A stretch of 64,000 bases of DNA from Siphonodentalium dalli (taxonomy: Eukaryota; Mollusca; Scaphopoda; Gadilida; Siphonodentaliidae): contig CP136066.1 in assembly GCA_032622095.1 (NCBI GenBank), positions 41,057,835-41,121,834 on the forward strand. The letters are read 5' to 3'. Made by a program: the position numbers and the translations under genes. The notes under the pieces were generated by a model. It saw only the letters and a program-made list of their open reading frames with translations. It did no database searches and was not told the origin of the DNA. Below, in pieces: positions 5,413-64,000 of the stretch; the first letter of the stretch is position 1; every line of letters begins with the position of its first letter.

Positions 5413-5665
5413 CAAGCCTTGAAATAGTGTGTCTGTCATTTGCAGAATGAGGTTCCCAGAGGGTGAATTTAGTGATGCTATCCCGCATAGCGGGCTAGCA
5501 TCACCAAATTCACCCTCTGGGAACATCATTCTGCTGAGGTGTAAGCAGAATGAGGTCCCCAGAGGGTGAATTTGGCAATGCTAGCCTGCTAAGTGGGGTA
5601 GCATCACTAAATTCACCCTCTGGGGACCTCATTCTGCAAATGACAGACACCCTATTTCAAGGCTT
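5413..5665. mobile_element. Large palindromic element (GCAGAATGAGGT family), compact copy
   Basis: It starts CAAGCCTTGAAATAGTGTG and ends with the inverted form ACCCTATTTCAAGGCTT. Between them are two back-to-back hairpins with stems of 40 bp or more, containing 'GAGGTTCCCAGAGGGTGAAT' and its complement, with loops at 'CGCATAGCGGG' and 'GCTAAGTGGG'. The whole element is a palindrome made of two palindromes. No clear target duplication is seen at this copy. Confidence 0.8.
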
Positions 5666-8268: not shown

Positions 8269-9749
8269 ATTCTGAGTAGGGTTGCCACAACTCTTGAGTT
8301 TTCAGAATCCACTAACCGACAATTATAGTCGATGGTTAGTCGTTTAATCGTTCATATATGCGGCCTACATTACACCCAGGTAAAGTGATAAATGTGAAAT
8401 TATAATGACTACTTTACATCCAGTCTGAACACAGTTATAAACTTTGAGTGTTCTGTGTTTTATTTCATATTCATGCTCATTCGTCCCGATGTAATTATAA
8501 ACATGCCCTTACTATTAAATACTGCCCAGATGCAGATGAGCCCGATGTTACTGCAAACTGCGCACCGACGTGACAATAACTTCTAATTTGCATGAAGTAA
8601 AACTAATCTCGGCCGCGAGTCAACGATATATATTTCGGCAGAACACGTGGTTAGTCGGCTAAAAACACGAAACTGCGGCAAAAGGTATGATGTTGCACTT
8701 AGGTTAATGAGGACATTTATAGGTAAACAGAGGCAGATATTTGAGCTTTTGTGGGGTGACGGGGATGCAGTCACAATTACTGCCGAGTATAACCTGTACA
8801 TTTTCAATAAAAAGTTACAAGAAATAACGAAGCAAATTAATAGTTTATATACGTTACCACTTTGGAGAAGGTACATGTAATGTATGTAGCACTCATAAGT
8901 GATTACACAAACTTGTTACTGAGTAACTGTCTAGTAACTTTGAACATTCCATGTCCCGCAAACTTTGTGACTTTGTCAATAAAGGTGAATGTTTTAAAGT
9001 ATGAAATTTGAAATGAAACATAGATGCAGTCCGATGCACGTCATCCATTTTGGCTATAATGATCGCTAATTACCGATCCATAGGAACATAAATTAAAATT
9101 CACAGTTAAACATAATTTATAGACAATGTCAAGGCCGAAACATGACATCAATCGCAAAGGAAGCCGCTGGCCCACCATGGACTGTGAGAACATGTCGCAC
9201 ACCAAATTTTTTGAAGATGACCACCAAATGATGGCTGTGACATCAAAGGGAAAGGAAGCTGCATAGAAGTGGCGAGTCTGGTGCAAGCCTTGAAATAGTG
9301 TCTGTCATTTGCAGAATGAGGTCCCCAGATGGTGAATTTAGTGATGCTACCCTGCATAGCGGGCTAGCATCACCAAATTCACCCTCTGGGGACCTCATTC
9401 TGCTTACACATCAGCAGAGTGAGGTTCCCAGAGGGTGAATTTGGTGATGCTAGTCCGCTATGCAGGGTAGCATGACTAAATTCACCCTCTGGGGACCTCA
9501 TTCTGCAAATGACAGACACACTATTTCAAGGCTTGGTGAGAGAACAGGCTGTCGGGTGGTCATTTGTGCTTCATACACTGTTAACTGTTACCTCCAGGCA
9601 TGGCATTGATGCATAGTACTTCTTACACACACAACCATACCCCCCCCCCCTTGTGCTTTTAGTCGACGAAAGTTAATAACCGTCGACTACCGCACCTGTC
9701 GAAGGTTAGTTGATTAATCAAATAATCTCGCGGCAAGCCTAATTCTGAG
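8269..9749. mobile_element. hAT-like non-autonomous element with perfect 8-bp target duplication
   Basis: The element runs from 8277 to 9741 with ends TAGGGTTGCC and GGCAAGCCTA, flanked on both sides by ATTCTGAG (8269-8276 and 9742-9749). Short inverted ends plus an 8-bp duplication are typical of hAT transposons. Subterminal regions are rich in GTCGA/TTAGTCG motifs. The small open frames inside (about 77-97 residues) do not resemble hAT transposase. A palindromic element is nested at 9284-9535. Confidence 0.85.
9284..9535. mobile_element. Large palindromic element (GCAGAATGAGGT family), nested in the hAT-like element
   Basis: Compact form with ends CAAGCCTTGAAATAGTG and ACTATTTCAAGGCTTG and two back-to-back hairpins. 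It lies wholly inside the hAT-like element at 8277-9741, so it inserted later. Confidence 0.8.
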
Positions 9750-10486: not shown

Positions 10487-10756
10487 GCTGTAAGCAAGCC
10501 TTGAAATAGGGTGTCTGTCATTTGCAGAATGAGGTCCCCAGAGGGTGAATTTAGTGATGCTACCCCGCATAGCAGGCTAGCATCACCAAATTCACCCTCT
10601 GGGGACCTCATTCTGCTTACACCTCAGCAGAATGAGGTTCCCAGAGGGTGAATTTGGTGATGCTAGCCCGCTATGCGGGGTAGCATCACTAAATTCACCC
10701 TCTGGGGACCTCATTCTGCAAATGACAGACATCCTATTTAAAGGCTTGGCTGTAAG
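10487..10756. mobile_element. Large palindromic element with 8-bp target duplication
   Basis: The element at 10495-10748 (CAAGCCTTGAAATAG ... TTTAAAGGCTTG) is flanked by GCTGTAAG at 10487-10494 and 10749-10756. It has two long hairpins around 'CCCCGCATAGCAGG' and 'CCCGCTATGCGGGG'. The duplication supports transposition, but another copy (17625) has a 19-bp duplication. Confidence 0.82.
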
Positions 10757-12161: not shown

Positions 12162-12224
12162 TAGGCTATTCCAATGTATACTTTTATAACAGAGAGTGGG
12201 AGAATACATTTAGTATATAAGGAT

Positions 12225-13435
12225 ATCAGTATAAATCTCTGTATAGCGGTGATATTACCAAGGATATCGGAATAAAACCCATATAGTGGTGATAATATTA
12301 AGGATATCGGAATAATGCCATGTATAGCGGTGATAATATAAAGGATGTCAGAATAAAGCCCAATATAGCGGTGATAATACGAAGGATATCGGAATAAAGC
12401 CCCAGTACAGCGGTGATAATATGAAGGATATCAGAATAAATGTCCATATAGTGGTGATAATATGAAGAATATCCATAATAAAGCCCCATATAGTGGTAAT
12501 AATATGAAGGATATCGGAATAAAGCCCCATATACATGTAGTGGTGACAATATTAAGGATATCGGAATAATGCCCTGTATAGCGGTGATAATATAAAGGAT
12601 ATCATAATAAAGCCCAATATAGCGAGATAATACGAAGGATATCGGAATAAAGTCCCCGTACAGCGGTGATAATATGAAGGATATCAGAATAAATCTCCAT
12701 ATAGTGGTGATAATATGAAGAATATCGGAATAAAGCCCCATATAGTGGTGACAATATTAAGGATATCGGAATAATTCCATGTATAGCGGTGATAATATAA
12801 AGGATATCAGAATAAATCTCCATATAGTGGTGATAATATGAAGAATATCAGAATAAAGCCCCATATAGATGTAGTGGTGATAATATGAAGGATATCGGAA
12901 TAAAGCCCCATATAGATGTAGTGGTGATAATATGAAGAATATCAGAATAAAGCCCCATATAGCAGTGATAATATGAAGAATATCGGAATAAAGCCCCATA
13001 TAGCAGTGATAATATGAAGGATATCAGAATAAAGCCCCATATACAATGTAGCAGTGATAATATGAAGGGTATCAGAATAATGTCATGTATAGCGGTGATT
13101 ATACGAAGGATATCGGAATAAATCCCTGTACATGTATAGCGATGATAATTCGAAGGATATCGGAATAAAACCCCATCTAGTGGTGATAATAAGGATATGA
13201 CAATAATGCCCCATATAGCGGTGATAACATGAAGGATAACGGAATAAAGCCCTGTATAGCAGTGGTAATACAAAGGATATCGGAATAAAGCCCCATATAG
13301 TGGTGATAATATGAAGGATATCGGAAAAAAGCCCCATATAGTGATGATAATACGAAGGATATCGGAATAAAGCCCCATATAGTGGTGATAATACGAAGGA
13401 TATCGGAATAAAGCCCTGTATAGTAGTGATATCGG
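12225..13435. repeat. Minisatellite, 41-bp unit, about 29 copies
   Basis: The period is 41 bp (for example CCCCATATAG at 13291, 13332 and 13373). The unit contains 'GGTGATAATATGAAGGATA' and 'TCGGAATAAAGCCCCATA'. Some units carry small insertions such as 'TACATGTAG'. The unit lacks stop codons in all three minus-strand frames, so overlapping open frames up to 176 codons occur, repeating a Tyr/Ile-rich peptide every 41 residues. I read this as a by-product of the repeat, not as a gene. Confidence 0.9.
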
Positions 13436-45551: not shown

Positions 45552-46370
45552 AGCTCAACTTGGAAAGGGAATAATTTAATGTATTACAGTCAATGGAGCG
45601 ATTAGGAATGTGGAAAGTTGAATGTCTAATACTAGTTTATAGACATGAAGAGAAAAGTAAAATCCAAGATGGCTGCTGGCGGCCATGTTTTCGGCCGAAT
45701 GACCCCAAAATGATTGTATCCCATCTACATGTCATCGTTAACATCCATGACAAATTTTATGACGATCAGACTAAAGGTACGACCTGTAGCCTATGCTAAA
45801 GAATTTAGTCATACAAAGAGTAAAATCCAAGATGGCTGCTGGCGGCCATGTTTTTTGGCCGAATGACACCAAAATGACTCGTTCCCATCTACATGTCATT
45901 ATTAACATCTATGACAAATTTTATGACGATCAGACTAAAGGTACGACCTGTAGCCCATGCTAAAGAATTTAGTCATACAAAGAGTAAAATCCAATATTAA
46001 CAACCATGACAAATTTCATGATGATCAGACGAACAGTACGACCTGTGGCCCATGCTAATGGATTAAATTTTGAAATCCAAGATGGCCACTGGCGGCCATG
46101 TTTTTTGTCCGAATGACCCCAAAATGACTCGTTCCCATTTACATTCCAATTTCAACAGCCATGACAAATTTTATGATGATCAGACTAAATGTACGACCTG
46201 TAGCCCGTGCTAAAGGATTTAGTCATACAAAGAGTAAAATCAAAGATGGCTGCTGGCGGCCATGTTTTTCTGCCGAATGACCCCAAAATTACTCGCTCCC
46301 ATTTACATGTCATTATTAACATTCACGACAAATTTTATGATGATCAGACTAAAGGTACAACCTGTAGCCC

Positions 46371-46790
46371 GTGCTAAAGGATTTAGTCATACAAAGAGTA
46401 AAATCCAAGATGGCTGCTGACGACCATGTTTTTTGGCCGAATGACCCCAAAATTACTCGTTCCCATCTACATGTCATTGTTAACATCCATGACAAATTTT
46501 ATGATGATCAGACGAACAGTACGACCTGTGGCCCGTGGTACTCTCTCCTGCCAAATAAACGTGACGTCACGTTTATTTATTTAAAGAAAAATACGACAGC
46601 ATCACGATTATTAGGCGCCATCACGATTATTTAAAGTTCTTGCAAAGTCGCGGAATTTTCAGTCAAAAAGTTAGAAAAAACGTGCAGCTCACTAAAAAAA
46701 ATAGAAGTGCACTTGACAAGTTGACAGGAATGTGGGAGAATCTCATTCCTAACAGGATTTAGGCCTCTAGATCATGATGTCCGTGTATAA
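46371..46790 (+). repeat. First copy of a 420-bp duplicated block (partner 48696-49115)
   Basis: The block spans one satellite monomer plus the first about 250 bp of the nested TA element and recurs almost unchanged at 48696-49115. The duplication is younger than the TA-element insertion because it includes the insertion junction. Confidence 0.85.
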
Positions 46791-47734: not shown

Positions 47735-48865
47735 ATGGATTAAATTTTGAAATCCAAGATGGCCACTGGCGGCCATGTTTATTGGCCGAATGACCCCAAA
47801 ATTACTCGTTCCCATCTACATTCCAATTTCAACAGCCATGACAAATTTTATGATGATCAGACTAAAGGTACGGCCTGTAGCCCGTGCTAAAGGATTTAGT
47901 CATACAAAGAGTAAAATCCAAGATGGCTGCTGGCGGCCATGTTTTTTGGCCGATTGACCCCAAAATGACTCGTTCCCATCTACATGTCATTATTAACATT
48001 CTTGACAAATTTTATGATGATCAGACTAAAAGTAGGACCTGTAGCCCGTGCTAAAGGATTTAGTCATACAAAGAGTAAAATCCAAGATGGCTGCTGGCGG
48101 CCATGTTTTTTGGCCGAATGACCCCAAAATTACTCGTTCCCATCTACATGTGAATATTAACATCCATGACAAATTTTATGATGATCAGACTAAAGGTACG
48201 ACCTGTAGCCCGTGCTAAAGAATTTAGTCATACAAAGAGTAAAATCCAAGAAGGCTGCTGGCCGCCATGTTTTTTGGCCGAATGACCCCAAAATTACTCG
48301 TTCCCATCTACATGTCAATATTAACATCCATGACAAATTTCATGATGATCAGACGAACAGTACGACCTGTGGCCCGTGCTAATGGATTGAATTTTGAAAT
48401 CCAAGATGGCCGCTGGCGGCCATGTTTTTTGTCCGAATGACCCCAAAATGACTCGTTCCCATCTACATTCCAATTTCAACAGCCATGACAAATTTTATGA
48501 TGATCGGACTAAAGGTACGACCTGTAGCCCGTGCTAAAGGATTTAGTCATACAAAGAGTGAAATCAAAGATGCCTGCTGGCGGCCATGTTTTTTTGGCCG
48601 AATGACCCCAAAATGACTCGTTCCCATCTACATGTCATTATTAACATTCTTGACAAATTTTATGATGATCAGACTAAAAGTACGACCTGTAGCCCGTGCT
48701 AAAGAATTTAGTCATACAAAGAGTAAAATCCAAGATGGCTGCTGGCGGCCATGTTTTTGGGCCGAATGACCCCAAAATTACTCGTTCCCATCTACATGTC
48801 ATTGTTAACATCCATGACAAATTTTATGATGATCAGACGAACAGTACGACCTGTGGCCCGTGGTA

Positions 48866-51310: not shown

Positions 51311-52715
51311 ATAATTGTGGTGGCCTATAAACATATCTTCGTGGCAGGAATCCAGGCCGAAATCAAAATACTGATGGAAATTTCACTCTATGTGGAATAA
51401 TAGTATATCGATGTGAATTTTTTCGAAATTTAATAATCGTATTGCCTCTACCATTAGGCACCTGAGAGAAAGGTGCCGGAGCAATCGCCCATGAAGATTG
51501 GTTTCCCGAATCAACCACTTGCAGCACCCGCCTACCATTGGTTCACACTGCCATAGGAGGACCTGGGGGGCCAGAACTGGTCCTGCCCGAGGTAAAGACT
51601 GGTACGGTTGCTCAAAGTAGGTAATCATTGACTAATATGCCCTGACCCAACTATAACAAGTAATACACCCGTGAATGAGCAACCTGCACGGTGTGTGGCC
51701 ATCAAATTCGAATCATGTTCGACTGCAAGACATGCTGTTAGTTATAACAAAGCAAGGTTAATATACATAACACAATACAACCTAGGTTATTGAGTATAAA
51801 GTAAGGTTAATATAAAATCACGTTATACCCCTGGCCACGTGATCTTACCTGCTATGACAGGTAAGATACTGTCTTTTCTCGTATATGAGGACGATGAGTT
51901 CCGAATGCACATAGGCAAGAACTAGGCGGTTTCCGTTAGGAAAGTGCGCTTACAGCGGACGTGAAGATACGAATGCCTTCATTTTCGGCATGATTGTATC
52001 GAATCGTTTTGTCACATAATCAGTGGATATGTGACAATAGACGAAGAGCCATGTCTTGGCCGGTTTCGGAAATATATTGGCAGTAGATGTGCGCAATATA
52101 AACGCTGCGCATGTAAGCTCGCTTTAGACATGTAACAATACAAATGCAGTCCTTTCTGATATTCTGCGCAATATAAATGTGTTGCATGTAACTGCGCATC
52201 ATACACGAGTGAAAGCTATTTGGCAGAATATCGTTTTGATATATGTGGAAATAGAAGTTAGTGAGCCAAGTGATGGTCTCTACTGGAAAGACTATTGGCA
52301 GTGAATCTGGAGCACGTGACAATATGTATTCTTTTTATTTCGCTGTTTGCCGTTATCATTCACTGATGAAACTGCAAAGTATGTCAGTATTGGGATGAAA
52401 ACTGTTCACCATATGTAAGCATACTAGTAGTCAGTTCTGACAGCATACATGAGGCCCTGATACCATATGAATGTCATGTACAATGTATGGAACTATTACA
52501 GCGTGCAATACATTATTGCAAGCTCGCCCATGCCGAGGCATATTAGAGCCTACGGTAAGATGGCTTAGTGTCAGGCTACAAAGTTTTCACTTCATTGCAG
52601 TTGGTGAACAATAGTTCGTAGGAACCCAAACTGTACATACATGGATGTAAAGAATGCAACACAATATTTAGAACGTCAGACAACACATCAATTTGAAGTG
52701 TGGTTATATATGTGA
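51311..52715. other. No gene supported
   Basis: A plus-strand stretch near 51429-51485 reads NRIASTIRHLRERCRSNRP then stop, vaguely like a Tc1-type transposase helix, but it is too short to assign. About 52080-52200 contains two diverged copies of TGCGCAATATAAA. Otherwise unassigned. Confidence 0.4.
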
Positions 52716-55280
52716 CTAGAAGGTGACCCGACTTCGTCCGGGCTATTAAAAAACCAAATTTCAAGTCGATTGCTCCACCCGTTTCCTAGATCTGGTCTGC
52801 GCATGCGCGAAGCTGGTGTCGCACGTGCTCGGCGACCCGATAAAATTCGTATCCGGGGCAAGATACATTCACATACCAAATTTAAAGTCAATATCTCAAC
52901 CCGTTTACGAGATCTCGTCTGCGCATGCGCGAAGCTAGCGTCGCACGTGCTCGGCGACCCGATAAAATTCGTATCCGGGGCAAGATACATTCACATACCA
53001 AATTTCAAGTCGATAGCTACACCCGTTTCCGAGATATATAGCCCAATGTCATTTGCGGATACCTCGGCCGGTGATGAGTTAACGCGACACAGTCAAATGC
53101 ATCGGCAGGGTGAGAGTTAACGTAATCTAACTTTATGACCTCTGACGACGTCATAGAAATTACGCATTGATTTTATCCTGATAAAAGCATCGTACCACTT
53201 GTACCTAATAATTGAGGCAGATAACTAAAACGGATACATACATATTATATATCGTTGGAAAGATGAAGCCACACAGATTCTAACCGTGCAAATTATATGA
53301 CTGGCAATTTATTATTCGCGCTATATCGTATCGATTTGTGAGCACCGAACTGAAATATATTAGCGCAAAACGGCGTAAAAACAGATTTGACCTCCGCACG
53401 TGAAAAGTTGACCTCGCACGGACAAATAAATATGCCTATGTTCGTCTCCGGCCGAAAATACCCTAAAATACCAAATTTCATCGAAATTGGCTTAGTCGTT
53501 TTCGAGTCCATCGATTTCAAACAAACAAACACATACACACACACACAGATCTTTCAAAATATATAATAGACTAGAAGGTGACCCGACTTCGTCCGGGCTA
53601 TTAAAAAACCAAATTTCAAGTCGATTGCTCCACCCGTTTCCTAGATCTGGTCTGCGCATGCGCGAAGCTGGTGTCGCACGTGCTCGGCGACCCGATAAAA
53701 TTCGTATCCGGGGCAAGATACATTCACATACCAAATTTAAAGTCAATATCTCAACCCGTTTCCGAGATCTCGTCTGCGCATGCGCGAAGCTGGCGTCGCA
53801 CGTGCTCGGCGACCCGATAAACTTCGTATCCGGGGCAAGATACATTCACATACCAAATTTCAAGTCGATAGCTACACCCGTTTCCGAGATATATAGCCCA
53901 ATGTCATTTGCGGATACCTCGGCCGGTGATGAGTTAACGCGACACAATCAAATGCATCGGCAGGGTGAGAGTTAACGTAATCTAACTTTATGACCTCTGA
54001 CGACGTCATAGAAATTACGCATTGATTTTATCCTGATAAAAGCATCGTACCACTTGTACCTAATAATTGAGGCAGATAACTAAAACGGATACATACATAT
54101 TATATATCGTTGGAAAGATGAAGCCACACAGATTCTAACCGTGCAAATTATATGACTGGCAATTTATTATTCGCGCTATATCGTATCGATTTGTGAGCAC
54201 CGAACTGAAATATATTAGCGCAAAACGGCGTAAAAACAGATTTGACCTCCGCACGTGAAAAGTTGACCTCGCACGGACAAATAAATATGCCTATGTTCGT
54301 CTCCGGCCGAAAATACCCTAAAATACCAAATTTCATCGAAATTGGCTTAGTCGTTTTCGAGTCCATCGATTTCAAACAAACAAACACATACACACACACA
54401 CAGATCTTTCAAAATATATAATAGACTAGAAGGTGACCCGACTTCGTCCGGGCTATTAAAAAACCAAATTTCAAGTCGATTGCTCCACCCGTTTCCTAGA
54501 TCTGGTCTGCGCATGCGCGAAGCTGGTGTCGCACGTGCTCGGCGACCCGATAAAATTCGTATCCGGGGCAAGATACATTCACATACCAAATTTAAAGTCA
54601 ATATCTCAACCCGTTTCCGAGATCTCGTCTGCGCATGCTCGAAGCTGGCGTCGCACGTGCTCGGCGACCCGATAAACTTCGTATCCGGGGCAAGATACAT
54701 TCACATACCAAATTTCAAGTCGATAGCTACACCCGTTTCCGAGATATATAGCCCAATGTCATTTGCGGATACCTCGGCCGGTGATGAGTTAACGCGACAC
54801 AATCAAATGCATCGGCAGGGTGAGAGTTAACGTAATCTAACTTTATGACCTCTGACGACGTCATAGAAATTACGCATTGATTTTATCCTGATAAAAGCAT
54901 CGTACCACTTGTACCTAATAATTGAGGCAGATAACTAAAACGGATACATACATATTATATATCGTTGGAAAGATGAAGCCACACAGATTCTAACCGTGCA
55001 AATTATATGACTGGCAATTTATTATTCGCGCTATATCGTATCGATTTGTGAGCACCGAACTGAAATATATTAGCGCAAAACGGCGTAAAAACAGATTTGA
55101 CCTCCGCACGTGAAAAGTTGACCTCGCACGGACAAATAAATATGCCTATGTTCGTCTCCGGCCGAAAATACCCTAAAATACCAAATTTCATCGAAATTGG
55201 CTTAGTCGTTTTCGAGTCCATCGATTTCAAACAAACAAACACATACACACACACACAGATCTTTCAAAATATATAATAGA
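52716..55280 (-). mobile_element. Helitron-like tandem array, units 1-3 (855 bp each)
   Basis: Read on the minus strand, each unit begins TCTATTATATATTTTGAAAG and ends in a hairpin CCCGGACGAAGTCGGG followed by CACCTTCTAG, the TC...hairpin...CTAG layout of Helitrons (Helentron/HINE type). Units lie at 52716-53570, 53571-54425 and 54426-55280 with no spacer: the CTAG of one joins the TC of the next. Each contains a 117-bp internal duplication (the GCGCATGCGCGAAGCTGG segment twice) and a CA microsatellite near the 5' end. Differences between units are very few. The open frames of 80-117 codons are shared repeats without Rep or helicase motifs. Confidence 0.82.
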
Positions 55281-56702
55281 CTAGAAGGTGACCCGACTTC
55301 GTCCGGGCTATTCAAAAACCAAATTTCAAGTCGATAGCTCCACCCGTTTCCTAGATCTGGTCTGCGCATGCGCGAAGCTGGTGTCGCACGTGCTCGGCGA
55401 CCCGATAAAATTCGTATCCGGGGCAAGATACATTCACATACCAAATTTCAAGTCGATAGCTACACCCGTTTCCGAGATATATAGCCCAATGTCATTTGCG
55501 GATACCTCGGCCGGTGATGAGTTAACGCGACACAGTCAAATGCATCGGCAGGGTGAGAGTTAACGTAATCTAACTTTATGACCTCTGACGACGTCATAGA
55601 AATTACGCATTGATTTTATCCCGATAAAAGCATCGGACCACTTGTACCTAATAATTGAGGCAGATAACTAAAACGGATACATACATATTATATATCGTTG
55701 GAAAGAGGACACGCCACAGATTCTAACCGTGCAAATTATATGACTGGCAATTTATTATTCGCGCTATATCGAATCGATTTGTGAGCACCGAACTGAAATA
55801 TATTAGCGCAAAAACGGCGTAAAAACAGATTTGACCTCCGCACGTGAAAAGTTGACCTCGCACGGACAAATAAATATGCCTATGTTCGTCTCCGGCCGAA
55901 AACACATCCAAATACCAAATTTCATCGAAATTGGCTTAGTCGTTTTTGAGTCCATCGATTTCAAACACACACACACACACACAAACAAACACACAGATCT
56001 TTCAAAATATATAATAGACTAGAAGGTGACCCGACTTCGTCCGGGCTATTCAAAAACCAAATTTCAAGTCGATAGCTCCACCCGTTTCCTAGATCTGGTC
56101 TGCGCATGCGCGAAGCTGGTGTCGCACGTGCTCGGCGACCCGATAAAATTCGTATCCGGGGCAAGATACATTCACATACCAAATTTCAAGTCGATAGCTA
56201 CACCCGTTTCCGAGATATATAGCCCAATGTCATTTGCGGATACCTCGGCCGGTGATGAGTTAACGCGACACAGTCAAATGCATCGGCAGGGTGAGAGTTA
56301 ACGTAATCTAACTTTATGACCTCTGACGACGTCATAGAAATTACGCATTGATTTTATCCCGATAAAAGCATCGGACCACTTGTACCTAATAATTGAGGCA
56401 GATAACTAAAACGGATACATACATATTATATATCGTTGGAAAGAGGACACGCCACAGATTCTAACCGTGCAAATTATATGACTGGCAATTTATTATTCGC
56501 GCTATATCGAATCGATTTGTGAGCACCGAACTGAAATATATTAGCGCAAAAACGGCGTAAAAACAGATTTGACCTCCGCACGTGAAAAGTTGACCTCGCA
56601 CGGACAAATAAATATGCCTATGTTCGTCTCCGGCCGAAAACACATCCAAATACCAAATTTCATCGAAATTGGCTTAGTCGTTTTTGAGTCCATCGATTTC
56701 AA

Positions 56703-56733
<31 letters not shown>

Positions 56734-56768
56734 AACACACACACAGATCTTTCAAAATATATAATAGA
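55281..56768 (-). mobile_element. Helitron-like tandem array, units 4-5 (738 and 750 bp)
   Basis: Units at 55281-56018 and 56019-56768 lack the 117-bp internal duplication of units 1-3 and share variants such as GGAAAGAGGACACGCC. They differ from each other mainly in the length of the CA tract. On the minus strand the array as a whole is preceded by host A (56769 complement) and followed by host T (52715 complement), as expected for insertion between A and T. Confidence 0.82.
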
Positions 56769-57619
56769 TAACGAATACCATCCCCCTGTTACGGAGTGTT
56801 AGTAACTATTGTACTGATGATACAATGAGTTATATGATATTTAATCGTGATAGACAAGGCAGAATTTTCTAAATACCTTGAAGTCGATGTAATGTGTTAT
56901 TACATTTGCCATGTGTCTAACAAGACCACGCGCTCATACATACTGGCGGGCGTAGATTCGCAGGTATTGATCGTTAAAACAATGTTACAGATCGCTCAGT
57001 CGAAAGAAATGTGAATTGTCATCTGATAGTGATAACAAGTACTATCTTTCGTATTTATTCATGTAAATTATTACAAAGGAGGATATGGCTGTCCTGTGCA
57101 ACTTTCTGCGAATTAACAGAGCAGTGCCATGTATGATTTGGCAGTATACATTAGGATACAAAGCAACGGAACTTACGAAATAACCGAAGCGAGTCGACGG
57201 AAACTTATGTAAAGTGAAACACGTGTAGCACGAAATTAGGAGATATCGCATACCGTACTACATTGCGTCCTCAATTGTAAGTCATGATAGTCATCACGCC
57301 GTATGTGTGGCACAATATGCACTATGTGGTTTTGCCACAAGTAAGCTATGTGCTTCTTTAGTCATTGTCAAGATGGCCATCTTAATTCCAATTGTTGGAA
57401 GATAAAGCCGTCTAGAGGAAAACAGAAAACACAGAAACAAATTACGGATACAGTGAAACGAAAAAAGTTCCCGTTTCGGATGTGAGAAATATTAATTAAC
57501 TATCGGGTACAATAAATTGCAAGTTTGTAATATCAACAATAAATATTGAGTCGATAAACTCGCAACACAGAAAGATACAACCTTGAGAAAATAGAAACGA
57601 TCCTGTCCTGGCGAGGAGG
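56769..57619. other. No recognised feature
   Basis: Apparently unique intron sequence. It contains the short palindrome AAGATGGCCATCTT near 57371. No exon seen. Confidence 0.45.
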
Positions 57620-62699: not shown

Positions 62700-64000
62700 A
62701 TAAATGCCCTCTCCGATTTGACACTATAAAACCAAGATAATTATGTTCGTTTTCTCTACCAGAAAATACTAAGATCGGACCCATAATTATGAGCACATGT
62801 AAAATACCCCCACATACCAAGTTTCATCGAAATCCCGTGATATTCGTGCGTTTGACCTTGAAATGACCCGATTTCAAGGTCACGTCGCACGGGCAAATTA
62901 ATAGGCCCATGTCACTCCCCGGCCGAAAATACCCCCACATACCAAGTTTCATCGAAATCGGCTCCATTGGAAACAGACAGACAGACAGGCAGATCTTCCA
63001 AAATATATAATAGACTAGAAGGTGACCCGACTTCGTCCGGGCTTTGACCTTGAATTGTCCATTTTGAAGGTCAAGGTCAAGTAGGGTCACGATTTGACCA
63101 GTCCAAAACACTACCCGAACAAAAGTACCCGACAAACGTGCCCGTCGAAATCCATCCGGTTTTACCCGATTTGACATCGAATTGATCATTTTGAAGGTCA
63201 AGGTCAGGTCGGGGTCACGACTCGACCCGTCCAATACACTCAGTGGACAAAAGTAACCCTACGTATCAAATGTCGCGAATTGACCTTGAATTGACCAGAT
63301 TTCAAGGTCAAGGTCACGTCGCACGAGCAAATGAATAGACGTATGAGACTCCCCATACGAAAGTACCCCCACATACCAAGTTTCATCAAAATCCCGTGAT
63401 ATTCGAGCGTTTGACCTTGAAATGACCCGATTTCAAGGTCAAGTTCGCGTCGCACGGGCAAATTAATAGGCCTATGTCACTCCCCGGCCGAAAATACCCC
63501 CACATACCAAGTTTCATCGAAATCGGCTCTGCTGTTTTCGAGTCCATTGGAAACAGACAGACAGACACACAGACAGACAGATCTTCCAAAATATATAATA
63601 GACTAGACGGTGACCCGACTTCGTCCGGGCTTTGACCTTGAATTGACCATTTTTAAGGTCAAGGTCAGGTGGGGTAACGATTTGACCCGTCCAAAACACT
63701 GCCCGGACAAAGTACCCGACAAAAGTACCCGTCGAAATCCATCCGGTTTTACCCGATTTGACCTCGAATTGATCATTTTGAAGGTCAAGGTCAGGTCGGG
63801 GTCACGACTCGACCCGTCCAATACGCTCAGGCTCATGAGACTCCCCATACGAAGGTACCCCCACATACCAAGTTTCATCAAAATCCCGCGATATTCGGGC
63901 GTTTGACCTTGAAATGACCCGATTTCAAGGTCACGTCGCACGGGCAAATTAATAGGCCTATGGCACTGCCCGGCCGAAAATACCCCCACATACCAAGTTT
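62700..64000 (-). mobile_element. Second Helitron-like tandem array, running off the right edge
   Basis: Junctions with the same CTAG/TC layout occur at 63014-63015 and 63602-63603 (ATATATAATAGA-CTAG). On the minus strand the complete unit at 63015-63602 starts TCTATTATATATTTTGGAAG, carries GTCTGTCTGTCT repeats, and ends in the CGGACGAAGTCGGG hairpin and CTAG. The unit to its left is partial, and the one to its right continues beyond 64000. The interior, rich in GACCTTGAA/TTCAAGGTC words, differs from the array at 52716, so the two arrays are sister families with shared ends. Confidence 0.75.

Follow-up and report, generated by a model that had tools for sequence, protein, structure and literature searches.

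How five transposon copies came to stand end to end, with not one base between them, is the question raised by positions 52716 to 56768 of the window analyzed here, the 64,000-bp stretch C6:41057835-41121834 of the Siphonodentalium dalli genome (2.23 Gb, 9 contigs). Five nonautonomous Helitron units lie there head to tail on the minus strand, each CTAG 3′ end abutting the TC 5′ start of the next without a spacer; coordinates and end matches agree in this with an earlier note on the same DNA. That note had offered two origins for the array: a single concatemer from rolling-circle replication that failed to terminate, or repeated insertion targeted to the CTAG-T junction. Along the element strand, the order of the two unit types, A and B, is B750-B738-A855-A855-A855 (750, 738, 855, 855, and 855 bp). 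Unit 1, the 3′-most, delimited by sequence and end matching (type A, 855 bp), occupies 52716 to 53570 and is followed by unit 2 (type A, 855 bp; 53571 to 54425), unit 3 (type A, 855 bp; 54426 to 55280), unit 4 (type B, 738 bp; 55281 to 56018), and the 5′-most unit 5 (type B, 750 bp, with a longer CA repeat; 56019 to 56768), all on the minus strand. The 3′ end (RTS) of unit 1 (52716 to 52742, minus strand) consists of a putative stem-loop, CCCGGACGAAGTCGGG, and then TCACCTTCTAG; these 27 bases recur identically at 53571, 54426, 55281, and 56019. The 23-base 5′ end (LTS) of the array, TCTATTATATATTTTGAAAGATC (56746 to 56768, minus strand), recurs identically, ending at 53570, 54425, 55280, and 56018. 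In element orientation, the locus thus reads host ...CGTTA, TCTATTATATATTTTGAAAGATC...CCCGGACGAAGTCGGG-TCACCTTCTAG, and host TCACAT.... The unit lengths given in the earlier note (855 bp for units 1 to 3 and about 740 bp for units 4 and 5) hold, while its 117-bp inner duplication gives way to one with a period of 122 bp, found in the A units at 52753 to 53035 (unit 1), 53608 to 53890 (unit 2), and 54463 to 54745 (unit 3); 117 is the difference between 855 and 738.

The array sits once between a host A (52715) and T (56769), as the note had held. Its flanks are pieces of one high-copy repeat, interrupted after 52566 to 52715 (last base A on the plus strand, T on the element strand) and continued at 56769 to 56899 (first base T on the plus strand, A on the element strand). 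Joined together (150 + 131 bp), the flanks gave an uninterrupted 281-bp match at 99 to 100% identity in all 40 scored places (of 670 candidates), so that the array occupies one clean site, without target duplication. The empty host repeat in those 40 places sets the outer termini and gives the canonical Helitron insertion between A and T; all five units have the canonical ends, TC (TCTATT...) at the 5′ side and CTAG (of the CTRR type) at the 3′ side, without terminal inverted repeats. Canonical Helitrons carry a hairpin ~10 to 12 nt before the 3′ end; the candidate 3′-end stem here (4 bp, CCCG/CGGG, 11 nt from the end) has a folding energy of −3.3 kcal/mol (z, −0.61), and 51 of 200 shuffled sequences fold equally well. 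With 99 to 100% identity in the 40 scored places (of 670 candidates), the repeat that received the array is recent as well as high in copy number.

A search for autonomous copies with the same ends, which the earlier note had proposed, yielded elements at locus L041 (127 to 8935; 8,809 bp) and locus L096 (1 to 9150; 3′ end with one change), 99.3% alike in two long alignment blocks. The L041 element carries Rep (9.5e-58) and PIF1 (1.1e-65) domains spread over two open reading frames (ORFs) of 982 and 587 amino acids, and L096 has a 1693-amino-acid ORF with Rep and PIF1 domains, an HUH motif (HAH) at 776, and a Y-x3-Y motif (YVCKY) at 916; the Pfam matches are PF14214 and PF05970. Together, these elements match the HUH-Y2 Rep and PIF1-type helicase partner that is characteristic of canonical Helitrons. 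Type A and the L041 element have their first 157 bases and their last 29 in common at 100% identity, and an L041-type element probably mobilizes the nonautonomous units. Helentrons (Helitron2) have noncanonical termini, insert at T^T, and carry an endonuclease domain; we rejected placement in that class because the termini and the A^T site are canonical here and Pfam revealed no endonuclease domain in the three autonomous ORFs. Each autonomous element directly follows a nonautonomous unit (unit, autonomous, unit, autonomous). The exact array at C1:114623301-114642700 that holds L041 and L096 alternates between the two kinds of element and seems to hold the block of one unit and one autonomous element in duplicate.

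Stacking in the window is no freak. Genome-wide counts of exact matches are 11,820 for the 27-base 3′ end, 12,427 for the 23-base 5′ end, and 3,693 for the 37-base junction, compared with 0 for the reversed junction control, which excludes chance; 31% of exact 3′ ends (3,693/11,820) directly abut an exact 5′ start. CTAG stands immediately before 6,299 (51%) of the 12,427 exact 5′ ends and A before 5,701 (46%), the other 427 (3%) having a different sequence there, so about half of the family's intact 5′ ends carry an exactly joined Helitron. The joined partner is often of another kind: in 44 CTAG contexts, from loci partly picked for having junctions, the 3′-end type was the family's own CCTTCTAG in 24, a probable own variant in 2, and another type in 18, comprising 14 of the GCTCATCGGCTAG kind (12 TCGGCTAG and 2 near variants) and 4 CCTGCTAG. 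A second 3′-end type (GCCCGACGTCGGGC plus 11 nt) has the same geometry as the family's own, with a fold of −5.4 and 11 of 200 shuffles as good.

If arrays arose as concatemers of single circles, neighboring units should be alike. From C1, we sampled 80 loci, half of them clusters of 3′ ends and half clusters of junctions (40 each), and could read 34 complete neighboring pairs, 31 of them joined through the family's own 3′ end; pairs with at least 97% identity and at least 95% coverage were counted as alike, and 1000 random pairs served as the control. Twenty-seven of the 34 pairs fell below this threshold, a few of them near it, such as L005 (identity, 0.993; coverage, 0.87) and L050 (0.963; 0.98). 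Median identity was 0.946 for neighbors versus 0.931 for random pairs, and median coverage was 0.75 versus 0.64. Typical members of a junction are thus about as unlike as random units, which a single circle cannot produce, and one-step concatemers fail for most pairs. Like pairs were nevertheless about 12 times as frequent among neighbors (7/34, at 5 loci) as among random pairs (17/1000), so that local amplification acts too; the Fisher P value of 5e-6 treats pairs as independent, which those within one array are not. With coverage alone set at 0.9 or more, the counts were 10 of 34 neighbors and 119 of 1000 random pairs. Insertion of the same kind acting in cis would fit this excess, as would short concatemers or unequal exchange. 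Like pairs were unevenly spread over the batches (1/20 in L001 to L061 and 6/14 in L076 to L095), and like runs may be undercounted in this sample of one chromosome, since seven places of the junction list were omitted and two clusters shortened, several of them being long arrays. At L005, a 2405-bp period is made up of two units and a 462-bp piece.

The window array shows both patterns at close range. Almost no divergence, as the earlier note had described it, is true within types: among the 855-bp A units, we found 4 substitutions between units 1 and 2, 1 between units 2 and 3, and 5 between units 1 and 3, and units 4 and 5 differ by 1 substitution in 738 bp plus a length change in the CA repeat. 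It is not true between types, which differ by 19 to 21 substitutions in 733 bp (2.6 to 2.9%). Among the A units in hand, the nearest relatives of units 1 to 3 are each other (1 to 5 substitutions), the next A-type unit being at least 8 away. At alignment column 620, units 2 and 3 have a base in common that neither unit 1 nor any of the 14 further A-type units in the comparison has; two differences are private to unit 1 and one is private to unit 3. The common base implies that the trio was either not identical at birth or changed afterwards, and to judge from these few substitutions, it looks like the product of a stepwise local history rather than of units identical from birth. Because four of the five variable sites of the trio are crowded into 61 bp (chance, 0.006), the pattern may owe something to gene conversion, which could mimic a shared derived base. 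For unit 4, at least 13 other copies had an equal top score at 100% identity (best 40 of 2,479 candidates scored), and type B is, by this measure, evidently part of a recent burst. These identical copies, the canonical ends, the autonomous partners, and the clean insertion bear out the earlier reading of a recent, Helitron-like event. We read the array as unlike members, A and B, joined to each other, with AAA and BB as local runs, both processes having probably acted; the near-identical runs could be short concatemers or products of unequal exchange. In the type-B arrays at L062, L063, L064, L070, and L071 and in the window, the 5′-most B unit is the longest (742 to 760 bp, the rest mostly 738 bp); L073 is an exception.

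What draws one copy to the edge of another may be the target site. All 41 distinct nonjunction 3′ flanks begin with T, and nearly all have A/T at +5 to +11, a rule that the element's own start, TCTATTATATATTTTG, also fits. Against a host background of 58 kb and 52 flanks only, the insertion rate was ~0.30 per own 5′ boundary versus ~0.00035 per comparable host site, an ~850-fold difference; across the 12,427 own 5′ boundaries, ~4 insertions were expected (matrix bin, 52 flanks) and 3,693 were seen (~900 times as many). Both excesses are inflated because junctions are also copied and locally amplified, and the boundary figures set a ceiling on new joining. At the A^T step 4 bp farther in from the own 5′ boundary, a single hit was counted in the whole genome (~0.5 expected), close to background. 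The exact boundary therefore seems special beyond its AT-richness, which we rejected as the sole cause given the single hit at the inner site and the ~900-fold boundary excess. Resident 5′ ends of a related Helitron family, F2, have also been hit by later arrivals: in L017, L020, and L025, members of 857, 736, and 880 bp are nested 4 bp inside an F2 5′ end, the TCTA that they displaced lying beyond them. At L078, a family member lies at the same F2 point on one side, and at L028, L032, and L079, members lie exactly at the F2 start. A count of 1,766 CTAG occurrences 4 bp inside the F2 5′ end was discarded as a number of insertions, many hits being listed ~1.1 to 1.2 kb apart, as in amplified repeats.

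In the explanation that we lean toward, each new copy lands at the A^TC start of one already resident, and a local process then lengthens near-identical runs. An element with Rep and PIF1 helicase and the same ends would mobilize the nonautonomous units. Transposition presumably starts with a nick made by its Rep nuclease at the A^TC boundary, and the nicked origin of a resident might then serve as a target, the incoming 5′ end joining the host A and the incoming CTAG joining the resident TC. As each insertion would recreate the same A^TC site, arrays of unlike members would accumulate. Runs of like units would be extended by a further process acting locally, whether re-insertion in cis, a short rolling-circle multimer, or unequal exchange. 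The chemistry invoked is that of Helraiser, with its insertion at A^T, cleavage of the ends by Rep, and free CTAG end (PMC4778049, PMC5876387), and nicking of the resident origin with joining of an incoming copy is the simplest account that uses known Helitron chemistry only. Targeted insertion, the second origin in the earlier note, is the better fit, with a change of side: since A or CTAG precedes 12,000 of the 12,427 exact 5′ ends, the A^TC 5′ boundary is a likelier target than CTAG-T. Arrays growing on the 5′ side should have the younger unit as the 5′ neighbor; judged by distance to the nearest outside relative, this was so in 17 of 33 pairs (P = 1; Wilcoxon P = 0.25), and we dropped an age gradient along arrays for want of any signal, leaving the proposed side without support from age order. 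Whether this applies across the clade, with a nicked A^TC start favored far above comparable AT-rich DNA and mixed arrays of autonomous and nonautonomous elements assembling themselves, is a more tentative matter, plausible and still somewhat doubtful.

Rolling-circle read-through, in which replication of a circle passes the 3′ hairpin several times and the resulting multimer is inserted in one step, would leave the exact CTAG/TC junctions that are those of Helitron circles (PMC4778049). The excess of like neighbors (7/34 pairs at 5 loci) is in its favor, as are three 738-bp units at L073 that carry the same single base off consensus with no substitutions among themselves and two adjoining 719-bp units at L110 that are 100% identical. 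Most sampled pairs (27/34) are nevertheless below the likeness threshold, differing 3′-end types are joined, and the derived base of units 2 and 3 is not found in unit 1 (a pattern that gene conversion could mimic), and we consider read-through an unlikely main source of arrays. For the whole window array, the single failed-termination concatemer of the earlier note was rejected because alignment of the units shows two types instead of copies of one template, and a derived base common to units 2 and 3. Unequal crossing-over between units, starting from a pair, could have produced the stepwise relation of the window trio and the higher-order repeats found elsewhere, including 852-bp units with 292- to 294-bp spacers at L065, the 2405-bp period at L005, and the twofold block of unit plus autonomous element with autonomous parts 99.3% alike. 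Yet it cannot create the first exact CTAG/TC dimer from single copies or join unlike members, such as most of those in the sample (27/34), and as the builder of arrays it is improbable.

Most junctions could instead be old and copied en bloc, if the transposase bypassed an internal 3′ end and pairs moved as composite elements. Bypass of the 3′ end is experimentally known for Helraiser (PMC4778049), and some ordered pairs do recur: unit types Z and Y follow each other at six fetched loci (L098, L099, L101, L103, L104, and L106), with different outer flanks and roughly parallel distances in both units at L098, L099, L104, and L106; the X-Y pair of L009 is found again at L097 (~95%); and B adjoins A at L062 and L072 as well as in the window. 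Against this, the 80-locus sample, small relative to the diversity, did not contain the same ordered pair twice when units of different 98% clusters were paired, and near-identical Y units (98.5 to 99.2%) have four different upstream partners (L009, L098, L110, and L111). Matches to the L009 dimer were themselves rejected as en bloc copies, since most fetched loci with a complete upstream unit had one of another type, alike only at its end (best 40 of 5,656 candidates), L097 with the same ordered pair at ~95% being the exception. En bloc copying as the origin of most junctions strikes us as rather improbable. The Z-Y loci L099, L101, and L103 have a downstream flank in common that is also found at L100; at these four loci (C2, C3, and C8), the same TTAATGATATATATC follows the 3′ end, as if a bypassed 3′ end carried flanking DNA along.

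If capture of an incoming copy at a resident origin is the correct reading, head-to-tail Helitron arrays elsewhere may be reread in the same way rather than as concatemers. It would also explain how a rolling-circle transposon seeds satellite-like arrays and links different members. Thousands of exact junctions make the choice between concatemer and insertion countable, through the likeness of neighbors, the base before the 5′ end, and hits at the boundary versus inside.

Tandem or head-to-tail Helitrons have been reported from bats, maize, rice, Drosophila, and plant centromeres (PMC2267711, PMC5148889, PMC5876387, PMC12628747), and both the concatemer and the serial-insertion readings have been published, argued from few cases (PMC2267711, PMC5148889). 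The HeliBat tandem elements (Pritham and Feschotte, in PMC2267711) resemble ours in their perfect CTAG/TC junctions without a host A between them; they were read as rolling-circle tandem repeats, whereas most sampled neighbors here are unlike and junctions number in the thousands. Two adjacent Helitrons at maize r1 join unlike members CTAG/TC, as here; the authors concluded that insertion was consecutive and listed the A/T at the 5′ end among the possible targets (PMC2267711). That is one case with its order left open, compared with about half of the exact 5′ ends and a measured boundary excess in the present genome. Plant centromeric Helitrons (Xiong et al. 2016, in PMC12628747) likewise form tandem arrays of copies, many with multiple 5′ ends, a single 3′ end, and truncated copies, while both ends are retained in all five units of the window. 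Helraiser of bats shares the TC/CTAG ends and A^T target; it favors AT-rich DNA, chiefly toward the 3′ side, forms circular head-to-tail intermediates, and can bypass its 3′ end, and the available portions of these reports contain no preference for resident 5′ ends (PMC4778049, PMC5876387). Site preference causes dimers of Drosophila transposable elements and possibly seeds satellites (McGurk and Barbash, in PMC12628747), likewise a consequence proposed here; those dimers are general across elements, whereas here it is at its own 5′ boundary that the element inserts. In a literature search covering few subscription papers, and in the accessible parts of the sources, we found no description of a Helitron family in which half of the 5′ ends are occupied, nor any measurement of a boundary excess relative to matched sites. 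Head-to-tail Helitrons are thus known, and the scale and the boundary bias look new.

The search for further arrays, also proposed in the earlier note, led beyond the 3,693 exact junctions to a second array within the window, on the minus strand. A 588-bp unit with an exact 3′ end (63015 to 63602) is joined at 63015 to the 5′ end, with one change, of another family element (62992 to 63014), and the next unit (63603 to 64000), whose 3′ end has one change, continues beyond the window. The window holds other repeats as well. Three arrays of ~164-bp units (AAATCCAAGATGGCTGC...) lie at 8 to 1118, 45656 to 46537, and 47750 to 48862, and a 41-bp tandem array of ~29 copies lies at 12215 to 13431. An ~196-bp repeat (GCAGAATGAGGTCCCCAGAGGG...) is present in three copies (5442 to 5637, 9311 to 9506, and 10524 to 10719), and its palindrome-like unit is perhaps a small inverted-repeat element.
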